This document shows positions 45,797 to 58,895 of a stretch of DNA of 64,000 bases, piece after piece; within the stretch, counting starts at the first letter, position 1, and each line of letters begins with the position of its first letter. This stretch comes from a virus. Made by a program: the position numbers and the translations under genes. The stretch is from positions 29,304 to 93,303 of IMG/VR virus record IMGVR_UViG_3300047476_001657; one strand, given 5' to 3'. The notes under the pieces are model-generated. The model saw only the letters and a program-made list of their open reading frames with translations. It was not told where the DNA came from and made no database searches.

Positions 45797-46663
45797 ATGT
45801 ATACAAATACTGATTGGAACAAATTTCATTTAATTGATGTTGTTGAAGGATTAAAAAAAATTGAATCAAATTCCGTTGATATTGTATTGTCAGATCCACC
45901 ATATAACATTGGTAAGGATTTTGGACTTTGTAAAGACAATTTAGAGTTAAACACCTACTTACAATGGTGTGATGAGTGGATAAATGAAAGTATTAGAATT
46001 TTAAAACCATCTGGGTCACTGTTTATCTATGGTTTCAGTGAAATCTTAGCTCATTTGTCAGTTAGGATTAATTTAGATAAAAGATGGTTAATTTGGCACT
46101 ATACCAACAAAACAGTTCCAAGTTATAATGGATGGCAAAGAAGTCACGAAAGTATTCTTTATTGTTGGAAAGAGAAACCCGTATTCAATAGAGATGAAAT
46201 TAGAATTCCTTACACTGAAACTTTCCTTAAAAACTCGGCAGGTAAAACAAGAAAAAAAAGTAACACTGCAAGATTTGGGGGTAAAGAAGAAACTACATAT
46301 ACAGCACATGAAAATGGAGCACTCCCAAGAGATGTTTTTACTGATGTTTCTACTTTAGCAGGTGGTGCAGGTAAAGAGAGATATTTTTTATATGATGGTG
46401 AAGTCTATCCTGGTACGGAAATAAAAAACTTTGACATTGAAAAATGTCTTAAACACCCAACACAAAAACCTTCAAAATTGACTCAAAAATTATTACTTTC
46501 AGCTAAAACTGATGGTTGTAAAGTAGTTATCCCATTTGGAGGTTCAGGTTCTGAAGGTGTTGTTTCTAAAAAATTGGGTTTAGATTTTATTGGGTTTGAA
46601 ATAAATGAGGATTATTTAAAACTAGCAAATGGGGCTGTAAATAAATTTCAAGATATATTTTAA
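45797..46663 (+). CDS. DNA methyltransferase, DPPY class (R-M type)
   Basis: The 288-residue protein has DPPY at 33-36 (motif IV, within VLSDPPYNIG) and the SAM-binding motif VIPFGGSGSEG near residue 235, followed by FIGFEINEDYLKLA. This motif order fits the beta class of N6-adenine or N4-cytosine methyltransferases. It faces an endonuclease-like gene, with only a palindromic terminator between them, so it probably protects DNA in a restriction-modification pair. The start is an ATG right after the VPIEV gene. The recognition site cannot be read from the sequence. Confidence for the enzyme class is high. Confidence 0.9.
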   Translation: MYTNTDWNKFHLIDVVEGLKKIESNSVDIVLSDPPYNIGKDFGLCKDNLELNTYLQWCDEWINESIRILKPSGSLFIYGFSEILAHLSVRINLDKRWLIWHYTNKTVPSYNGWQRSHESILYCWKEKPVFNRDEIRIPYTETFLKNSAGKTRKKSNTARFGGKEETTYTAHENGALPRDVFTDVSTLAGGAGKERYFLYDGEVYPGTEIKNFDIEKCLKHPTQKPSKLTQKLLLSAKTDGCKVVIPFGGSGSEGVVSKKLGLDFIGFEINEDYLKLANGAVNKFQDIF

Positions 46664-46698
46664 ATAACTTTGTGAGTTAACTCACAAAGTTATTTAAA
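46659..46698. terminator. 40-bp perfect palindrome between convergent genes
   Basis: A 40-base perfect palindrome (centre GTTAAC) contains the methyltransferase stop on its left arm and the endonuclease stop at its centre. It would act as a bidirectional terminator, although its T tracts are short. Confidence 0.7.
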
Positions 46699-47195
46699 TC
46701 TTCAACATTTCTAATTGGTGTTAAATAGTTTTTTATGTTTTTATAATTACACCAAAGTCCTTGTCCTTCGGCACCACCTTGTTGTGTGACCAATCCCTTA
46801 GACTTCAAATTAAGTAAGTCTGATTTACTTATGATGAACACATCAATACTATTGAAATTAACACCACAGAATAGTAGATAATCATATTCGTGATCCTCCA
46901 TTATATGTTGCCATTTCCAATCACCATTAGTGACCCAAAATCTTGAAGATTTAACTTCAAAGTTTTTACCTGATAATATTTGACGTAAATCGTGACCTGT
47001 ATTAGTTGGCTTATCAAGGGATAAACATTCCTTAATAATTCTTTGTATTTTTTCCCCAAACGATTTATTACTAAGAGAAACGATTTTTAGTATGTCTGGA
47101 TGTGCATTGTTTTCAACATAATAATCTAATTGAGTTTTTACAGTTTTTATACTTTCAAAAGTTTTAGTTTTACTTATTTGTTCTATTGATATCAT
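46677..47195 (-). CDS. Type II restriction endonuclease-like, PD-(D/E)XK
   Basis: The 172-residue protein has a nuclease-like signature: GHDLRQILSGKNFEVKSS with Asp69, Glu80 and Lys82, preceded by FGEKIQ with Glu48 and followed by WQHIMEDHEYDYLLFCGV. This GxD...ExK spacing fits small type II restriction enzymes. It is convergent with a DPPY methyltransferase, the usual restriction-modification layout. It could cut unmethylated host or rival phage DNA. Alternatives are a Vsr- or HEG-type nuclease. The start is an ATG at 47195 after an A/T-rich leader. The fold is inferred by eye; the partner supports it. Confidence 0.65.
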   Translation of the reverse strand: MISIEQISKTKTFESIKTVKTQLDYYVENNAHPDILKIVSLSNKSFGEKIQRIIKECLSLDKPTNTGHDLRQILSGKNFEVKSSRFWVTNGDWKWQHIMEDHEYDYLLFCGVNFNSIDVFIISKSDLLNLKSKGLVTQQGGAEGQGLWCNYKNIKNYLTPIRNVEDLNNFVS

Positions 47196-47281
47196 ATTAC
47201 TTATTTTTATTTAATGTAAACATAATTAAAAATTTTGAATTGTAAAAAAAAATAATTAATTTCTTTAAAAAGGATAATTGG

Positions 47282-47320
47282 GTTTATATGAAAGGTTCTA
47301 ACCTATCTAAAAATCTGTAA
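47282..47320 (+). repeat. Right copy of duplicated gene end
   Basis: These bases code VYMKGSNLSKNL-stop without a gene in front; upstream homology to the VPIEV gene stops at once. It marks the right edge of the cassette. Confidence 0.85.
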
Positions 47321-47328
47321 TATTTATT
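47321..47328 (+). promoter_or_regulatory. TATTTATT late-promoter-like motif
   Basis: The motif follows the duplicated stop codon directly and is 10 bases before the ATG at 47339, with an A-rich leader. Confidence 0.45.
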
Positions 47329-47363
47329 GTAAAAAAATATGGAAAAGTTAATTAAAAGAGTTT

Positions 47364-47666
47364 TTGGAAGATAGAATTGATTTTGAGGGATATGATATCA
47401 GAGTTAATCCAAACAGAAAAATTAGTCAGTTATATGATGTATTTGAAGATGAATATGGCTGGGCTATCAAAAGAATGGGAGAAAAGGAAGCTATAATTGA
47501 ATGGTTACGAGGATTACCTAGTGTATTAGATATCCCCTTCTATTACTATGATATCAGTAATTTATTATATGCTTTAGGTTTTGATGAAGTTAAGGAAATG
47601 GAAGATACAGAAATTGGTGATTTATACTATGACTTACTCGCAAAAACCATTATGGAAAACAAGTAA
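47364..47666 (+). CDS. Small protein, probably frameshifted at its start
   Basis: The open frame codes 100 residues from a TTG at 47364 (LEDRIDFEGYDIRVN...). A much better start is the ATG at 47339, 10 bases after a TATTTATT motif and an A-rich leader, but that frame (MEKLIKRVF) hits a stop at 47372. Removing one T from the T5 run at 47361-47365 joins the two frames into a protein of 108 residues (MEKLIKRVLEDRIDF...). Either the gene is broken, uses frameshifting, or has a sequence error. The product is acidic and unrecognised (NLLYALGFDEVKEMEDTE). Confidence 0.5.
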   Translation: MEDRIDFEGYDIRVNPNRKISQLYDVFEDEYGWAIKRMGEKEAIIEWLRGLPSVLDIPFYYYDISNLLYALGFDEVKEMEDTEIGDLYYDLLAKTIMENK

Positions 47667-47691
47667 ATAATTTAACATTTAATTTTTACAG

Positions 47692-47735
47692 AACCCCACT
47701 ATTTTAATTAAAAAAAAGATAGTGGGGTTTATTTA
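47692..47735 (+). terminator. Terminator overlapping the next reading frame
   Basis: An 11-bp stem (AACCCCACTAT with ATAGTGGGGTT) has a 16-base loop. Its right arm carries the possible GTG start of the next gene at 47722. Confidence 0.75.
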
Positions 47736-48018
47736 CTTTATCAAAGATAATTCCAATCAAGTCAAAATCGGATATACAAATAGGGATGTACAAAAGAGGG
47801 TGAAAGAATTGAATTCACCCAATTTAAGTATTATCCTTGAATTTGAGTCCAAACATCCCACCAAATTAGAAAAGGCCTTACATTTTAGATTCAAACAATA
47901 TAATATTGAGAGGGAGTGGTTTAATTTAACAGATTTCAGTATTGAAGAATTGAAGAAAATTTGTTATACTCTTGAAGAGGGTATTAACACTATAAAACAA
48001 AATAATAATTTTTTATGA
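47722..48018 (+). CDS. T5orf172 / GIY-YIG-type small nuclease
   Basis: The 98-residue protein starts GFIYFIKDNSNQVKIGYT and continues RVKELNSPNLSIILEFESKHPTKLEKALHFRFKQYNIEREWFNL. This matches the T5orf172/MUG113 branch of the GIY-YIG superfamily. Such proteins are common in phages and are thought to act on DNA. The only usual start is the GTG at 47722, inside the terminator's right arm; ATT codons further up are the alternative, and N-terminal loss by rearrangement is possible. The end overlaps the next gene by 4 bases. Confidence 0.62.
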   Translation: MGFIYFIKDNSNQVKIGYTNRDVQKRVKELNSPNLSIILEFESKHPTKLEKALHFRFKQYNIEREWFNLTDFSIEELKKICYTLEEGINTIKQNNNFL

Positions 48019-48218
48019 AAAACATTTTAGTAAAAATTGGATTTAGAATAGCAAGTTGGCTATACAAACAAGGAATTATCGCACCACAACTTTTATCACA
48101 CGAAGATGGAGCTCCAGTGGAGTATATTAAAGTTCTAACATCAAATGAAAGTGAAGAACTTAAAAACAATGGGAAATTGAAAGGGGATTGGTCTTGGGAA
48201 ATAAACTATCAAAAATAA
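48015..48218 (+). CDS. Small protein, unknown
   Basis: The 67-residue protein starts MKNILVKIGFRIASWLYKQG and overlaps the GIY-YIG-type gene by 4 bases (ATGA). It is basic at the N-terminus and acidic in the middle (TSNESEELKNNG), ending GDWSWEINYQK. I do not recognise it. It is probably co-transcribed with the membrane protein that starts 9 bases later. Confidence 0.5.
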   Translation: MKNILVKIGFRIASWLYKQGIIAPQLLSHEDGAPVEYIKVLTSNESEELKNNGKLKGDWSWEINYQK

Positions 48219-48227
48219 TAATTTTTT

Positions 48228-48572
48228 ATGATGACATTAATTGCTTGGTTTGTTATGGCCTATGGGTTCACAAACATTATGGTTTATGGAAGTATTTTTC
48301 AGGGATTGAGAGATACTATTAAAAATTGGGGGAATAACCCATATTTTCCACTTAACTTCTTATTCAATTTTATAGATGGGATTCTGTCTTGTGTAATGTG
48401 CTGCTCAGTTTGGATCGGATTTTTCATTGGTTTGGTAATTTGGTCACCCAATAGTCATTTATTTGGAATGCCAATATACACATCTTGGTTTTTTGATGGA
48501 TTAATGGCGTCAGGTGCAGTATGGGCAATTAATGCTATTGTTGAATATTTTGAAGAGAATAGACCCAAATGA
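48228..48572 (+). CDS. Small membrane protein with Cys motif
   Basis: The 114-residue protein has three hydrophobic segments: about residues 3-25, 45-72 (with LSCVMCCSVWIGFFIGLVIW) and 83-105. The Cys cluster next to a Trp-Gly-rich helix resembles DUF1360-type membrane proteins. It might change the host envelope, for example in superinfection exclusion, but this is speculation. The end overlaps the next methyltransferase by 4 bases, so they are co-translated. Two ATG codons in a row start the gene. Confidence 0.58.
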   Translation: MMTLIAWFVMAYGFTNIMVYGSIFQGLRDTIKNWGNNPYFPLNFLFNFIDGILSCVMCCSVWIGFFIGLVIWSPNSHLFGMPIYTSWFFDGLMASGAVWAINAIVEYFEENRPK

Positions 48573-49189
48573 AAAAAGTATTAGAATTATTTGCTGGTAG
48601 TCGTTCTATTGGTAAAGCTGCTGAATCACTTGGAATGGAAGTATTTTCAGTTGATTGGGAACAATATGAGGGTATTAATTTATCAAAAGATATTGGACAA
48701 TTAACAATGGAAGATGTACCTTTTGTTCCTGATGTTGTTTGGGCTTCACCAGATTGTACAACATATACCATTGCGGCAATATCACACCACAGAAATGGAA
48801 CTGAACCAAAGAGTGAATATGCCATCAAATGTGATGGAGTTAATCAACATTTTATATCTTTGATAAAAGAATGGTTAAACATTAATCCAAATATGGTGTT
48901 CTTTATTGAGAATCCAAGGGGTATGTTAAGAAAGATGCCTTGGATGCAAGAGTTTACAAGACATACAATATGGTATTGTAAGTATGGGGATGAAAGAGCA
49001 AAACCCACCGATATATGGACAAATAGCACAACTTGGATTCCAAGACCGATATGTCACAATGGTAATAAAGAATGTCATCACCAACCAGCACCAAGGGGCA
49101 GTAAAACAGGAACACAAGGTAGAAAGGGAAGTTATGAAAGAAGTAAGATACCGGAACAACTTTGTATGGAAATATTAACATCCTTTTAA
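48569..49189 (+). CDS. C5-methyltransferase-like protein with SPDC motif
   Basis: The 206-residue protein begins VLELFAGSRSIGKAAE, a SAM-binding motif I, and has SPDC at 60-63 where the usual PPCQ stands, ENPRG near 114 (motif VI) and YERSKIPEQLCMEIL at the end. It resembles the short phage cytosine methyltransferase-like family. A cysteine is present but one position away from the canonical site, so catalysis by the usual Cys mechanism cannot be taken for granted. Target recognition is likely compact, as the protein is only 206 residues. Enzyme class is likely; activity is not. Confidence 0.72.
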   Translation: MKKVLELFAGSRSIGKAAESLGMEVFSVDWEQYEGINLSKDIGQLTMEDVPFVPDVVWASPDCTTYTIAAISHHRNGTEPKSEYAIKCDGVNQHFISLIKEWLNINPNMVFFIENPRGMLRKMPWMQEFTRHTIWYCKYGDERAKPTDIWTNSTTWIPRPICHNGNKECHHQPAPRGSKTGTQGRKGSYERSKIPEQLCMEILTSF

Positions 49190-49271
49190 TGTTGTTTATC
49201 ATTTGTTATGTATAGGCACGGTGAATTACAGATGGACTTAATTAAATGAACGAAACTAATAATTTTTAAAA

Positions 49272-50012
49272 ATGTGGGATGGTAAATATACTTTTGAAAA
49301 AAGTAAAATAATACAAGGTGATAGTTTAGATAAAATGAAATATATACCAAATGGTAGTGTTGATTTAATTGTAACTGACCCACCATATAAAATGACAAAA
49401 CAAGGAAATTCTTGTAGACCAAATTATATGAAAAGTGGAATGGGTGAAAATTTATTTGATGGGGAATTACCAAATACAAAAGAGTGGATGAACCTATGTT
49501 TTGATAAATTAAGAGATGACGCACATTTTTATGTTTTTACAAATATCAATAGTTTACACGAATATTTAGATGTGGCAAAAGAATGTGGATTTAAATTACA
49601 CAACATAATTTCTATGATTAAAGACACTAAAATGCCAAATAGGTGGTATTTGAAATATACGGAATTTGTTTTGTTTTTCCGAAAAGGTAGAGCATTTCCA
49701 ATAAATGATATGACAAGTAGGGATTATGAATTTGTAGAAACACCAACACTAAAAAATGGTAAAATACATATATCACAGAAACCATTAAATTTTATTGAGA
49801 AATTAATAACTAATTCATCAAAAGAAGGTGAAATATGTTTGGATTTATTTAGTGGTAGTGGAACTCTTGCAGAGGCGTGTTTAAATACAAATAGGGATTT
49901 TATCATTATAGAGAAAAATCCAAATGACTTTGAAAAAGGCAAAAAGAGGGTTGAAGAAATTTTTAAAAATTATGGATTTAACCCACAAAGTTTATTAGAC
50001 ACACAAATGTAG
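49272..50012 (+). CDS. DNA methyltransferase, DPPY class (solitary)
   Basis: The 246-residue protein has DPPY at 36-39 (within VDLIVTDPPYKM) and the SAM motif CLDLFSGSGTLAEA at about 191-204, with HISQKPLNFIEKLI between, so it is a beta-class adenine-N6 or cytosine-N4 methyltransferase. It starts with ATG after TTTAAAA and has no endonuclease next to it, which suggests a protective role. It is not closely related to the cassette enzyme at 45797 beyond shared motifs. Confidence is high. Confidence 0.9.
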   Translation: MWDGKYTFEKSKIIQGDSLDKMKYIPNGSVDLIVTDPPYKMTKQGNSCRPNYMKSGMGENLFDGELPNTKEWMNLCFDKLRDDAHFYVFTNINSLHEYLDVAKECGFKLHNIISMIKDTKMPNRWYLKYTEFVLFFRKGRAFPINDMTSRDYEFVETPTLKNGKIHISQKPLNFIEKLITNSSKEGEICLDLFSGSGTLAEACLNTNRDFIIIEKNPNDFEKGKKRVEEIFKNYGFNPQSLLDTQM

Positions 50013-50261: not shown

Positions 50262-50692
50262 TGGAATTAATAACAACTTATATTTGTAAATTATCGGACA
50301 CTGGTGTTCACGATAATATATTTGGTGGAACAATACTTGGATTGATTGACCAAAGTGCTGGTGCTTATGCTGCTCAAATTTGCGACACACCTAGAATGGT
50401 TACAGTTAAAATTGATGAATTGGTTTTCAAGAATCCAGTTAAAGCTGGAACAATCATCAAAATATATGGAACTGTAAAAGAATTTGGCAATTCATCGATT
50501 ACTTTATATGTTGAAGTCAGAAAACACAATGTTTATACTGGTAAACAAGAGGTTGTGGTTTCAACTAATATAAAGTTTGTTAGAATAGATGAAGAAGGAT
50601 ATCCAATACCAATCTCGGAACGAATTAAAATTAGATACAATGAAAGATTTGAGAAATATGGTAAAGGATTATTAAACCCCGATGAAAAATAA
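50261..50692 (+). CDS. Hotdog-fold acyl-CoA thioesterase-like
   Basis: The 143-residue protein matches the YciA/BFIT-type hotdog thioesterases. It has N19-IFGG, the acidic Asp30 in LGLIDQSAGAYAA at the start of the central helix, a VTVKIDELVFKNPVKAG strand pair and an EVVVSTNIKFVRID end. These enzymes hydrolyse acyl-CoA esters. In a phage it could alter host lipid metabolism or act on another thioester. It overlaps the small gene before it (TAATG) and thyA by 11 bases, so it is co-translated with nucleotide metabolism. The fold call is good; the substrate is unknown. Confidence 0.75.
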   Translation: MELITTYICKLSDTGVHDNIFGGTILGLIDQSAGAYAAQICDTPRMVTVKIDELVFKNPVKAGTIIKIYGTVKEFGNSSITLYVEVRKHNVYTGKQEVVVSTNIKFVRIDEEGYPIPISERIKIRYNERFEKYGKGLLNPDEK

Positions 50693-51530
50693 AGTTATGA
50701 ATAAGGCTGATAAATACTATATCCAAAATATATCCAAAATTATGTCAGAGGGTTCTTGGGATGAGAATCCTAGGCCAAAATATAAAGATGGAACACCAGC
50801 ACATTCCAAATTCATAACCCAAGTTTGGGAAGAATATGATATTTCAAAAGGTGAATTTCCAATAACTACACTAAGACCAACGGCAATTAAAACTGGGATT
50901 AAAGAAATATTATGGATTTACCAAAAACAAACTTCGTCATTACAAGTTGCTCGTGAGATGGGTATTAATTGGTGGGATGAATGGAATATTGGTGATGACA
51001 CAATTGGTAGAAGATATGGGTCAACAATTGGTAAATATGCTTTAATGGATGGATTGTTGGGTGGATTAATGAAAGACCCATTCAGTAGAAGACATATTAT
51101 GAATATGTACCAATATACTGATTTGAACGAAACAAAAGGGTTATATCCTTGTGCTTATGAAACTATTTGGTCGGTAAGAAAAGTTGATGACAAATTATGT
51201 TTGGATTTAACTTTAATCCAGAGATCAAATGACTACTTGGTTGCTGGCTACATAAATAAAATCCAATATGTTGCCTTACAAATGATGGTTGCAAAACATT
51301 GTGGTTTTGAAGTTGGTAAGTTTTGTCACTTGGTTCAAAATCTCCACATATATGATAGACACTTTGATGTTGTTACTGAGTTGATAAATAAAGAACCATC
51401 CAAAGACAATTATCCATTTATTGAATTGTTAACTGATAAAAACTTCTATGATTATACAATAGATGACTTTAAGATTCACAATATGAGTGGTATAACTAAA
51501 ATTAATTCAAAATTAGAGTTAGCGATATAA
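50682..51530 (+). CDS. thyA: Thymidylate synthase ThyA (phi3T/B. subtilis ThyA type)
   Basis: The 282-residue enzyme methylates dUMP to dTMP with methylenetetrahydrofolate. The active-site stretch is YPCAYETIW with Cys157, and the folate/dUMP region has LIQRSNDYLVAGYINKIQY. The C-terminus is complete (KINSKLELAI). The residue after the Cys is Ala rather than His, as in the phage phi3T/B. subtilis ThyA subgroup, so this is not a defect. The start may be 50682 or the ATG at 50697. A homing endonuclease gene follows 49 bases later, but thyA itself is not interrupted. Confidence is high. Confidence 0.93.
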   Translation: MKNKVMNKADKYYIQNISKIMSEGSWDENPRPKYKDGTPAHSKFITQVWEEYDISKGEFPITTLRPTAIKTGIKEILWIYQKQTSSLQVAREMGINWWDEWNIGDDTIGRRYGSTIGKYALMDGLLGGLMKDPFSRRHIMNMYQYTDLNETKGLYPCAYETIWSVRKVDDKLCLDLTLIQRSNDYLVAGYINKIQYVALQMMVAKHCGFEVGKFCHLVQNLHIYDRHFDVVTELINKEPSKDNYPFIELLTDKNFYDYTIDDFKIHNMSGITKINSKLELAI

Positions 51531-51551
51531 GGTTTTTCTGATATATTTAGA

Positions 51552-51559
51552 TATTTATA
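51552..51559 (+). promoter_or_regulatory. TATTTATA motif overlapping endonuclease hairpin
   Basis: The motif lies 20 bases before the endonuclease ATG, and its last three bases form part of the left arm of a hairpin (51557-51581). A late transcript starting 5-8 bases after the motif would lack that arm. Confidence 0.5.
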
Positions 51560-51581
51560 TGGTAAGGAGGTAAAACCATAT
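51557..51581 (+). promoter_or_regulatory. Start-codon hairpin with Shine-Dalgarno in its loop
   Basis: ATATGGT (51557-51563) pairs with ACCATAT (51575-51581). The loop holds AAGGAGG (51564-51570), and the right arm holds the first bases of the ATG. A T-G and an A-T pair extend the stem to include the whole codon. It is the only strong Shine-Dalgarno sequence I noticed in this window. Confidence 0.65.
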
Positions 51582-52332
51582 GATAATCTACAGAACAACA
51601 AATTTAATAAATCAAAAATTTTATATCGGTAAAGATACTCATAATAACCCAAACTATTATGGGTCTGGAAAAAAAATGAAGTTAGCAATCAAAAAATATG
51701 GAAAAGAAAACTTCAAAAAGGAAATATTAGAAATTTGTGAAACAAAAGAGCAATTAAACGAAAGGGAAAAATATTGGATTGAAAAATTAAATGCGATTAA
51801 TGAGGGTTACAATATTTCTTTGGGTGGTGATGGTGGAGATACAATCTCAAATAATCCAAAAAAACATGAGATTGCTAAAATCCATAGTGAAAAAATGAAA
51901 ATGGAAAAATTTAACAAAAAAAAAGGAACAAAAGTTGTTAAATTAAAAAAAAGAGATGATTCTAATTGGGTTAATCCAAATAAAGGTAAAGTTAGTCCAT
52001 TAAAAGGGAAATCAACAGGTAAAAAAGGAATACCCAATCCAACACATTCTGAATGGATGAAAAAAAATAACCCCTTCAAAGGAAAAACACATACTAAAGA
52101 AGTTAGAGAAATTTTGAGTAAAATTAATTCTAAACCAAAAAGTGAAGAACATAAACGAAAAATATCTGAAACATTAAAGGGGAATAAACCTAGTAATATG
52201 AGGAAAGTTATTGTTGATGATATAGAATATGAAAGTTTAAGTTTTGCGGCAAGAAAAATAGGAATACCTATTTCTACTATGAAAAATAGATTAAAATCCC
52301 CAAAATTTGACAATTACAGATACAAAGATTAA
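51580..52332 (+). CDS. GIY-YIG homing endonuclease
   Basis: The 250-residue protein starts MIIYRTTNLINQKFYIGKD, the GIY-YIG catalytic module, with YYGSGKKMKLAIKKYG and a downstream Glu-containing region (NEREKYWIEKLNA). It has a long basic middle with SEEHKRKISETLKGN (NUMOD3-like) and a C-terminal helix-turn-helix-like end (SLSFAARKIGIPISTMKNRL). It would cut DNA at a specific site to spread itself. It stands free after thyA, the gene that carries the I-TevI intron in T4. The start region has an unusual Shine-Dalgarno and hairpin, unlike its neighbours, which suggests foreign origin. Confidence is high. Confidence 0.88.
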   Translation: MIIYRTTNLINQKFYIGKDTHNNPNYYGSGKKMKLAIKKYGKENFKKEILEICETKEQLNEREKYWIEKLNAINEGYNISLGGDGGDTISNNPKKHEIAKIHSEKMKMEKFNKKKGTKVVKLKKRDDSNWVNPNKGKVSPLKGKSTGKKGIPNPTHSEWMKKNNPFKGKTHTKEVREILSKINSKPKSEEHKRKISETLKGNKPSNMRKVIVDDIEYESLSFAARKIGIPISTMKNRLKSPKFDNYRYKD

Positions 52333-52599: not shown

Positions 52600-52863
52600 A
52601 TGAAAACAGAAACATTAAAAAAACTGATACAAAATGTCTTTGATAAGACAGATGACAAAGAAGAAATATATAGTGAAATTATGGCGTTGATTACATTATA
52701 CGAATTGGATCAACCAGAACCTAAATTTCTAAACAACAAGTTCAACTATAAAACATTTGAAAATCCATATTACATTAATTGTAGTTGTAATCCAATTAAT
52801 GGTGGTGATGGAGTTTGTGGATGTACACTTGGGGGACAATATTATTCAACTTCAACAATATAA
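52600..52863 (+). CDS. Small protein with C-terminal Cys cluster
   Basis: The 87-residue protein has a helical, acidic N-terminal half (LKKLIQNVFDKTDDKEEIYSE) and a Gly/Cys-rich end (NCSCNPINGGDGVCGCTLG) with four cysteines that could bind metal or form disulfides. I do not recognise it. The start is 1 base after the previous stop. Its function is unknown. Confidence 0.5.
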   Translation: MKTETLKKLIQNVFDKTDDKEEIYSEIMALITLYELDQPEPKFLNNKFNYKTFENPYYINCSCNPINGGDGVCGCTLGGQYYSTSTI

Positions 52864-57544: not shown

Positions 57545-58093
57545 ATGAAATACTTACTGACAGTTTTTATAGCACATGAAAATCAAGATTTATTTGCTCA
57601 ATCAGTTGCAATGGAGATTAGCCAACTTACAAAGGTGAATGGTGTTAAATACCACTACGGTCCTCAAGCTGTAATTTACACCTTTGAAACAAAAACAAAG
57701 TTTGAAACGGTAAAGTCATTCTTTGACACAATCTTAGGTGACTTATCAATTACACACATCTTAGTACCAATAAAAACTGACAAAATGTCATATTGGTTTG
57801 AAAAACAATTTGAAAAACATCTATTTGGTACGGATATTTGTAAGTCAAATGAAGAGTACTCAAAAGAAGAACAAGAAATGTTACAAGACCAAATGTTTGG
57901 TGGAACAAATATTTTTGATGACATTGATGAAGATGATGAGGATGAAGATGAAATCCAAAAAATTGTCAAAAAATCTATGGAAGTAGAAAAGAAATCCCCA
58001 TCTTTGGATGACATTTTAGACAAGATAAATGAAAAGGGGATGTCCTCCTTAACTAAGATTGAAAAAGATTTATTAAAACAATATTCAAACTAA
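57545..58093 (+). CDS. Acidic protein preceding sigma factor
   Basis: The 182-residue protein has an N-terminal beta/alpha domain (MKYLLTVFIAHENQDLFAQSVAMEI...), an Asp/Glu run (DDIDEDDEDEDEIQK) and a C-terminal segment LDDILDKINEKGMSSLTKIE, a motif that I know from the ends of Bacteroidota host proteins. It is the first gene after the host-type promoter and lies 1 base before the sigma factor, so the two are made together. It could control the sigma factor or host polymerase; this is inference. Confidence 0.6.
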   Translation: MKYLLTVFIAHENQDLFAQSVAMEISQLTKVNGVKYHYGPQAVIYTFETKTKFETVKSFFDTILGDLSITHILVPIKTDKMSYWFEKQFEKHLFGTDICKSNEEYSKEEQEMLQDQMFGGTNIFDDIDEDDEDEDEIQKIVKKSMEVEKKSPSLDDILDKINEKGMSSLTKIEKDLLKQYSN

Positions 58094-58094
58094 T

Positions 58095-58895
58095 ATGAAA
58101 GAGAAAAACACAGGTATGCCAATCAATCAAGAAGAAATTCAACAATATCTTAAGGATATTAGAAAGAAAAGAGTTATGACTCCTGAAAGGGAGAAAGAAC
58201 TTGCAGTTTTAATGAAGTCAGGTGAACTAACCCCTAAACAAGTGGAACAAGTAAATAAAGAATTATTGGAGGGTAATCTAAGATTCGTTATTACTGTGGC
58301 CAAACAATATCAAAATCAAGGATTAGATTTATCCGATCTTATTGCTGAGGGTAATTTGGGATTGATGAAAGCTATCAAGAACTTTGATTGGAACAAAGAT
58401 TTAAGATTTATTTCCTATGCTGTATGGTGGGTTAAACAATCTATTCTTCAAAGTTTGAATGACAATGCAAGAACCATTCGTCTCCCAGTGAATGTTGTTC
58501 AAGATTTACATAGAGCAAAAAAAGAAATTGATGCGAAAGGTGGTGAATTGGAAAGTAAGTTTGCTAATCTTCCATCTATGATTGATTTGGATATGGATAT
58601 CAATGAAGAAGGTGATACATTATTTGATGTATTAAAAAATGATGAGGCAGACATGCCTGATGAATCCTTTAACACGAAGGATATTCTTAAAACCAAGTTG
58701 TTAGGACTATTAACTTGTTTGGATGATAGGGAACGAGCAATTGTTGAAGATTATTTCGGATTGTCAGGTTCGCCAAGAACATTGGAAGACATTGGTGGTG
58801 ACTTTAATCTTACCAAGGAAAGAGTTCGTCAAATCAAAGAAAAATCATTGAGAAAGTTGAGAAACTTATCAGGTGATTTGTTTGAGTGGATGTAA
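58095..58895 (+). CDS. RNA polymerase sigma factor (RpoD-like)
   Basis: The 266-residue protein has region 1.2 (EIQQYLKDIRKKRVMT), region 2 (NLRFVITVAKQYQNQG, SDLIAEGNLGLMKAI, FISYAVWWVKQSI), a short region 3 (ARTIRLPVNVVQDLHRA) and region 4 (TLEDIGGDFNLTKERVRQIKEK). It is close to the Bacteroidota housekeeping sigma factor but has a reduced region 3. It would redirect host polymerase, most likely to the TATTTAT-type late promoters, as gp55 does in T4. It is co-transcribed with the acidic protein before it from a host-type promoter. The family call is very strong; the promoter target is inferred. Confidence 0.93.
   Translation: MKEKNTGMPINQEEIQQYLKDIRKKRVMTPEREKELAVLMKSGELTPKQVEQVNKELLEGNLRFVITVAKQYQNQGLDLSDLIAEGNLGLMKAIKNFDWNKDLRFISYAVWWVKQSILQSLNDNARTIRLPVNVVQDLHRAKKEIDAKGGELESKFANLPSMIDLDMDINEEGDTLFDVLKNDEADMPDESFNTKDILKTKLLGLLTCLDDRERAIVEDYFGLSGSPRTLEDIGGDFNLTKERVRQIKEKSLRKLRNLSGDLFEWM

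Follow-up and report, generated by a model that had tools for sequence, protein, structure and literature searches.

How is the synthesis of phage-borne homing endonucleases tied to the stage of infection? The closest described system is T4 I-TevI, encoded in the td intron. According to the excerpted text of PMC2988022, RNA initiated upstream of this gene carries a hairpin over the translation start, which is removed when transcription begins at a late promoter adjacent to the gene. The same excerpt describes similar arrangements for I-TevII, I-TevIII, SegB, and Aeh1 MobE (for MobE and SegB, see also the excerpted text of PMC3014915), and together these sources give the arrangement experimental precedent in T4 and Aeh1. 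With I-TevI, SegB, and MobE as precedents, the gating principle is already known, free-standing genes included.

Here, we examine the leader of a free-standing endonuclease gene in a 64,000-nt stretch of viral DNA (the window), which forms the final 64 kb of a 93,303-bp IMG/VR virus contig. Judging from its sequence and, with good support, from comparison with other loci, this leader is likely to be a transcription-timed translation gate, a cassette that probably keeps the endonuclease silent until late infection.

The thyA–endonuclease locus

The phage is of the Bacteroidetes type. Among isolates, Flavobacterium phage immuto is close, though only weakly, in the thioesterase, helicase, and baseplate genes tested, and isolates that are near in some genes infect Flavobacterium. 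A host search of GTDB genomes returned a single, uninformative match, to a Clostridia MAG (50% over 106 residues). On the + strand, an intact thymidylate synthase gene, thyA (50682–51530; Pfam PF00303, E 1e-59)—the putative source of read-through RNA—is followed after 49 nt by a free-standing gene for a 250-aa GIY-YIG homing endonuclease (51580–52332; PHROG 314, homing endonuclease). The protein has GIY-YIG, SegE_GIY-YIG, NUMOD3, and I-TevI_DNA-bd domains above the Pfam cut-offs (PF01541, PF19835, PF07460, and PF20987); the GIY-YIG, NUMOD3, and I-TevI DNA-binding domains, together with the adjoining thyA, identify it as a relative of I-TevI. Since the upstream thyA is intact and the window has no Rfam intron match, a group I intron around the endonuclease was rejected. 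The interval between the two genes contains no terminator-like site on the + strand, and the hairpin described below was accordingly rejected as a terminator. Elsewhere in the window, translations and one DNA match point to a cluster of DNA-methyltransferase-like ORFs at 45797–50012 (45797–46663, 48569–49189, and 49272–50012) with a small GIY-YIG-like ORF inside it (47722–48018).

Motif, hairpin, and Shine–Dalgarno sequence in the leader

The original prediction placed a late-promoter-like motif, a Shine–Dalgarno (SD) sequence, and a hairpin over the start codon in this leader, and their + strand positions are as it gave them. The putative late promoter motif TATTTATA spans 51552–51559. The repeat arms are ATATGGT (51557–51563) and ACCATAT (51575–51581), the second running into the ATG (51580–51582), and AAGGAGGT, a very strong SD (51564–51571), lies within the 11-nt hairpin loop (51564–51574). 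The ATG does sit in the right arm, but the stem is longer than originally described: the left arm covers 51548–51563 (outer helix 51548–51552, inner 51555–51563) and pairs with a right arm at 51575–51590 (inner 51575–51583, outer 51586–51590) that extends over the ATG and codons 2–4. The predicted fold of 51531–51620 has an energy of -16.9 kcal/mol, and the positions of its two helices place the spacer through codon 4 in the buried region. A hairpin over the start in upstream-initiated RNA, the mark of late-promoter/hairpin-gated leaders, is thus present in the predicted fold.

What would become of this hairpin in a late transcript? It had been proposed that an RNA starting just after TATTTATA loses the left arm, while read-through RNA keeps the start codon sequestered, and predicted folds of both forms agree. 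RNAs beginning no earlier than 51560 fold at only -1.6 to -1.1 kcal/mol, with the hairpin lost, and the predicted cost of opening the start is 8.4 kcal/mol in the long RNA vs. 1.3 in the truncated one. By analogy with the spacing between motif and RNA start in T4, transcription would begin at about 51565. Judged by sequence position, TATTTATA fits a late RNA without the left arm, and the motif marks structural genes (see below). In the gate that we propose, the left arm of RNA reading through from thyA would fold onto the right arm and bury the AUG and codons 2–4, so that little endonuclease would be made early. Late transcription would begin just after TATTTATA, within the hairpin loop, and the short RNA, without the left arm, would leave the SD and AUG free, allowing the endonuclease to be made.

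Could the inverted repeat be incidental in AT-rich DNA, with motif, SD, and start each conserved for plain expression and no gate at all? Seven-bp perfect repeats with a 9- to 13-nt loop are common in the window (61 vs. about 50 in shuffles) and, on their own, unremarkable, as this explanation would have it. Leader–start pairing as strong as that observed arose in just 2 of 2,000 dinucleotide shuffles of the leader. We consider it improbable that there is no gate, given the conservation and group-wide pairing presented in the following sections.

The SD sequence had been singled out as the only strong one, and its rank among 80 genes bears this out. Scored against an assumed 16S tail of the Flavobacterium type, it pairs at -13.1 kcal/mol; the next strongest reaches -7.1, and the median is -1.3. 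Across the fetched contigs, SDs precede 11 of 68 GIY-YIG endonucleases vs. 32 of 927 other genes (p 7e-5). The strong 16S pairing and the placement of the SD entirely inside the loop would also suit a hairpin that aids initiation, presenting the SD as a landing site and melting upon ribosome binding. This is very improbable, as the AUG and codons 2–4 are themselves within the stem and, with an SD at so few of the endonucleases, start pairing is not tied to SD presentation.

That a single gene has so strong an SD where SDs are otherwise scarce recalls the mRNA for bS21 (rpsU) in Flavobacterium johnsoniae and further Bacteroidota, whose SD is at the level of -13 kcal/mol (PMC9976891). The endonuclease gene, however, is not a ribosomal protein gene, and its SD barely reaches the value reported for rpsU. 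We found no phage-encoded bS21 in the 93-kb contig, which is possibly incomplete, and rejected this explanation of the SD. A more speculative reading, which we hold to be rather unlikely, is a lock with two keys, in which late transcription would free the start codon and the SD would direct translation to bS21-lacking ribosomes. In this reading, ordinary Bacteroidia ribosomes, in which bS21 helps to cover the anti-SD, would translate so strong an SD poorly. If the lock were real, a selfish gene would be responding to the phage clock as well as to the condition of the host's ribosomes and carrying the lock to each new thyA site. The endonuclease message is a candidate for a second class of SD-dependent mRNA in Bacteroidota.

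How well does TATTTATA qualify as a late-type promoter motif? The T4 late motif is TATAAATA, so that TATTTATA on the + strand—its reverse complement, a relationship that the original prediction overlooked—looks reversed. Of 80 genes in the window, 22 have TATTTAT in the 60 nt upstream, vs. 5 with its reverse complement, and the genes with the motif are found on both strands. The motif frequently lies 13–20 nt before the ATG (a sheath-like gene is one example), and between 45.8 and 58.9 kb, the endonuclease is the sole gene that bears it. In immuto, TATTTAT precedes the genes for TerL, portal, a virion structural protein, sheath, tube, hub, tail spike, PhoH, and GroES; no replication or nucleotide gene among those examined has it upstream, and several structural genes also lack it. 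Among the fetched contigs, it is found before 37 of the 68 GIY-YIG endonucleases vs. 121 of the 927 other genes (odds ratio 8, p 2e-14), the corresponding counts for the reverse complement being 9 and 72. A count of the T4 motif TATAAATA on both strands showed no excess over chance; to be informative, the test has to take strand and gene into account. From its position and the class of genes it precedes, we infer that TATTTAT is a late promoter motif, and the claim that TATTTATA is of the late type gains support from the occurrence of this orientation upstream of late-type genes in the phage group. TATTTAT is thus late-promoter-like in both immuto (NC_055915.1, L130–L132) and the window contig. 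A possible reader is the phage's sigma-70-type factor (58095–58895, + strand; Sigma70 r1.2, r2, and r4; PHROG 351); the protein encoded immediately upstream of it (57545–58093) has a C-terminal DUF6576 domain. The literature consulted contained nothing relevant on late promoters of Bacteroidetes phages or on the regulation of their endonucleases.

The leader and its thyA sites

Does the leader belong to the endonuclease or to the site in which it is found? The pattern TATTTATATGGTAAGGAGGTAANRCCATATG is present in 19 IMG/VR contigs. We compared the window with eight relatives (L005–L008, L010–L012, and L125) that share 76–87% amino-acid and 60–73% third-position identity with its endonuclease. 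From -30 to +3 (51550–51582, + strand), 32–33 of the 33 bases are identical, and just 4–9 of the 15 positions from -45 to -31 match; a nearer relative, L002, matches the window throughout. The part of the left arm that lies past the promoter (TGGTA) is likewise conserved, which argues against conservation for plain expression without a gate.

Wherever the upstream gene is readable, it is a thymidylate synthase, and two classes occur: one with a window-like end and one, recognized as thyA by eye, ending like ..NYQSHPTIKMPLSN. In two endonuclease-free relatives (L086 and L087), the gene immediately after thyA is a homologue of the window gene at 52600–52863 (+ strand), which marks the empty site. 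The endonuclease is thus present or absent at a common site, and the same gene occurs at two thyA classes. A leader far more conserved than third positions, found at both classes, indicates that it travels with the endonuclease. With the empty site also considered, promoter motif, hairpin, SD, and ORF together appear from these comparisons to form one mobile unit; motif, hairpin, and SD would have moved with the gene as a single cassette among different thyA genes.

An almost invariant, near-palindromic leader, next to a gene for an endonuclease with an I-TevI-type DNA-binding domain, is also what would be expected of a DNA operator at which the endonuclease represses its own late promoter. 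I-TevI acts in this way through an operator that overlaps the late promoter of its gene, according to the excerpted text of PMC2988022. Such an operator could coexist with an RNA gate, although we think it unlikely. Its derivation from thyA as a homing-site-like copy was rejected, as the likeness between leader and thyA is at chance level (best match 14/20 vs. 14–16 in shuffles; the homing site may lie outside thyA). Moreover, other lineages pair the start codon with unrelated sequences, for which an operator has no need, and a G-U-type pair in L020 suits RNA rather than a DNA palindrome.

Other relatives show further arrangements at thyA. In three contigs, related endonucleases lie between two thyA halves with differing break points (L021:3472-5562, L022:3280-5709, and L025:3478-5447); a common tail like KTDDELYENYLK closes the N-half, and a common head like YTKEEFLEQIKIDKEF opens the C-half. 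Either thyA is in pieces or the endonuclease has carried thyA fragments along (compare Aeh1 nrdA, split by mobE); a group I intron was rejected here also, as there is no Rfam match. A different GIY-YIG endonuclease follows thyA at L090:3896-4639, and its end, NYQSHPTIKAPLSN, resembles the C terminus of the other thyA class, as if part of a former host gene had been carried along. The leader of this gene has 13-base inverted arms around TATTTATA.

Start-region pairing across GIY-YIG endonucleases and known systems

If endonucleases are gated in this way, their start regions should pair best with their own upstream DNA. At 68 nonredundant GIY-YIG loci, we compared the pairing of each start region with its own upstream DNA and with that of other endonucleases. 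Mean pairing was -9.07 kcal/mol with the own region vs. -7.22 when permuted (z -6.8), while other pairs of regions at the same loci gave a background from local composition (z -1.5 to -2.0). At the 36 motif-bearing loci, the signal came from the region that late RNA would lose (z -5.8) and not from the region it would keep (z 0.0, with less power because this region is short); the lost region gave z -1.1 for 107 motif-bearing control genes other than endonucleases, which were identified with a simple ATG-based ORF rule. Shuffling of the upstream regions yielded z -9.4, or -4.5 without the eight strongest loci, and 16 of the 68 loci were individually significant at 0.05. Overall, endonucleases could not be told apart from other motif genes by the gain in opening energy upon truncation (p 0.43); the swap test is more specific but was run after this comparison, and several tests were applied to the same data.

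That these signals appear across endonucleases and are absent in other genes argues further against an incidental repeat. Within the near family, covariation is absent, as would be expected without a gate: no pair shows two-sided compensatory change, but there is too little variation for it, with 8 of 14 pairs invariant. In L018, two stem pairs are lost. Among lineages, stem sequences vary—the motif lies in the loop of a long stem at L081, and the left arm overlaps it at L036—so that the stems look as though they have been rebuilt repeatedly. Start-codon pairing is concentrated in DNA that would be absent from the late transcript, which suggests that early synthesis of the endonuclease has repeatedly been selected against.

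How, then, does the proposed gate compare with described systems? The same switch had been thought to have evolved convergently here, which is only partly right. The repeatedly rebuilt stems agree with this, but the protein itself is I-TevI-related and sits beside thyA, and segB and mobE are free-standing precedents (excerpted text of PMC2988022). The locus shares with T4 I-TevI an endonuclease of the same GIY-YIG family, a thymidylate synthase context, and a hairpin with a late promoter (PMC2988022, in excerpt). It differs in that the gene is free-standing, with no intron found; the motif is TATTTATA rather than TATAAATA; and the leader, whose hairpin holds the SD in its loop and the AUG in its stem, moves with the gene. 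Two related endonucleases at thyA are arranged differently: in Yersinia phage fHe-Yen9-01, the gene overlaps the thyA end without such a leader, and in Salmonella phage Melville, it is annotated inside a thyA intron and has its own start hairpin. SegB and MobE are closer in being free-standing, with a hairpin-sequestered start and a late promoter, and the excerpted texts describe no traveling leader cassette for either (PMC2988022 and PMC3014915). Both differ from the window in phage group and promoter; in addition, MobE is of the HNH type and located in nrdA, and SegB is found in a tRNA region. New features are a phage group and a late motif unlike those of the described systems, a cassette traveling between thyA genes, the group-wide statistical signature, and the sole very strong SD of a genome nearly devoid of them. 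With this leader, the late-translation switch of T4 and Aeh1 would extend to a distant phage group whose late promoter motif is not the same, in the form of a compact natural control cassette that is directly testable with reporters.
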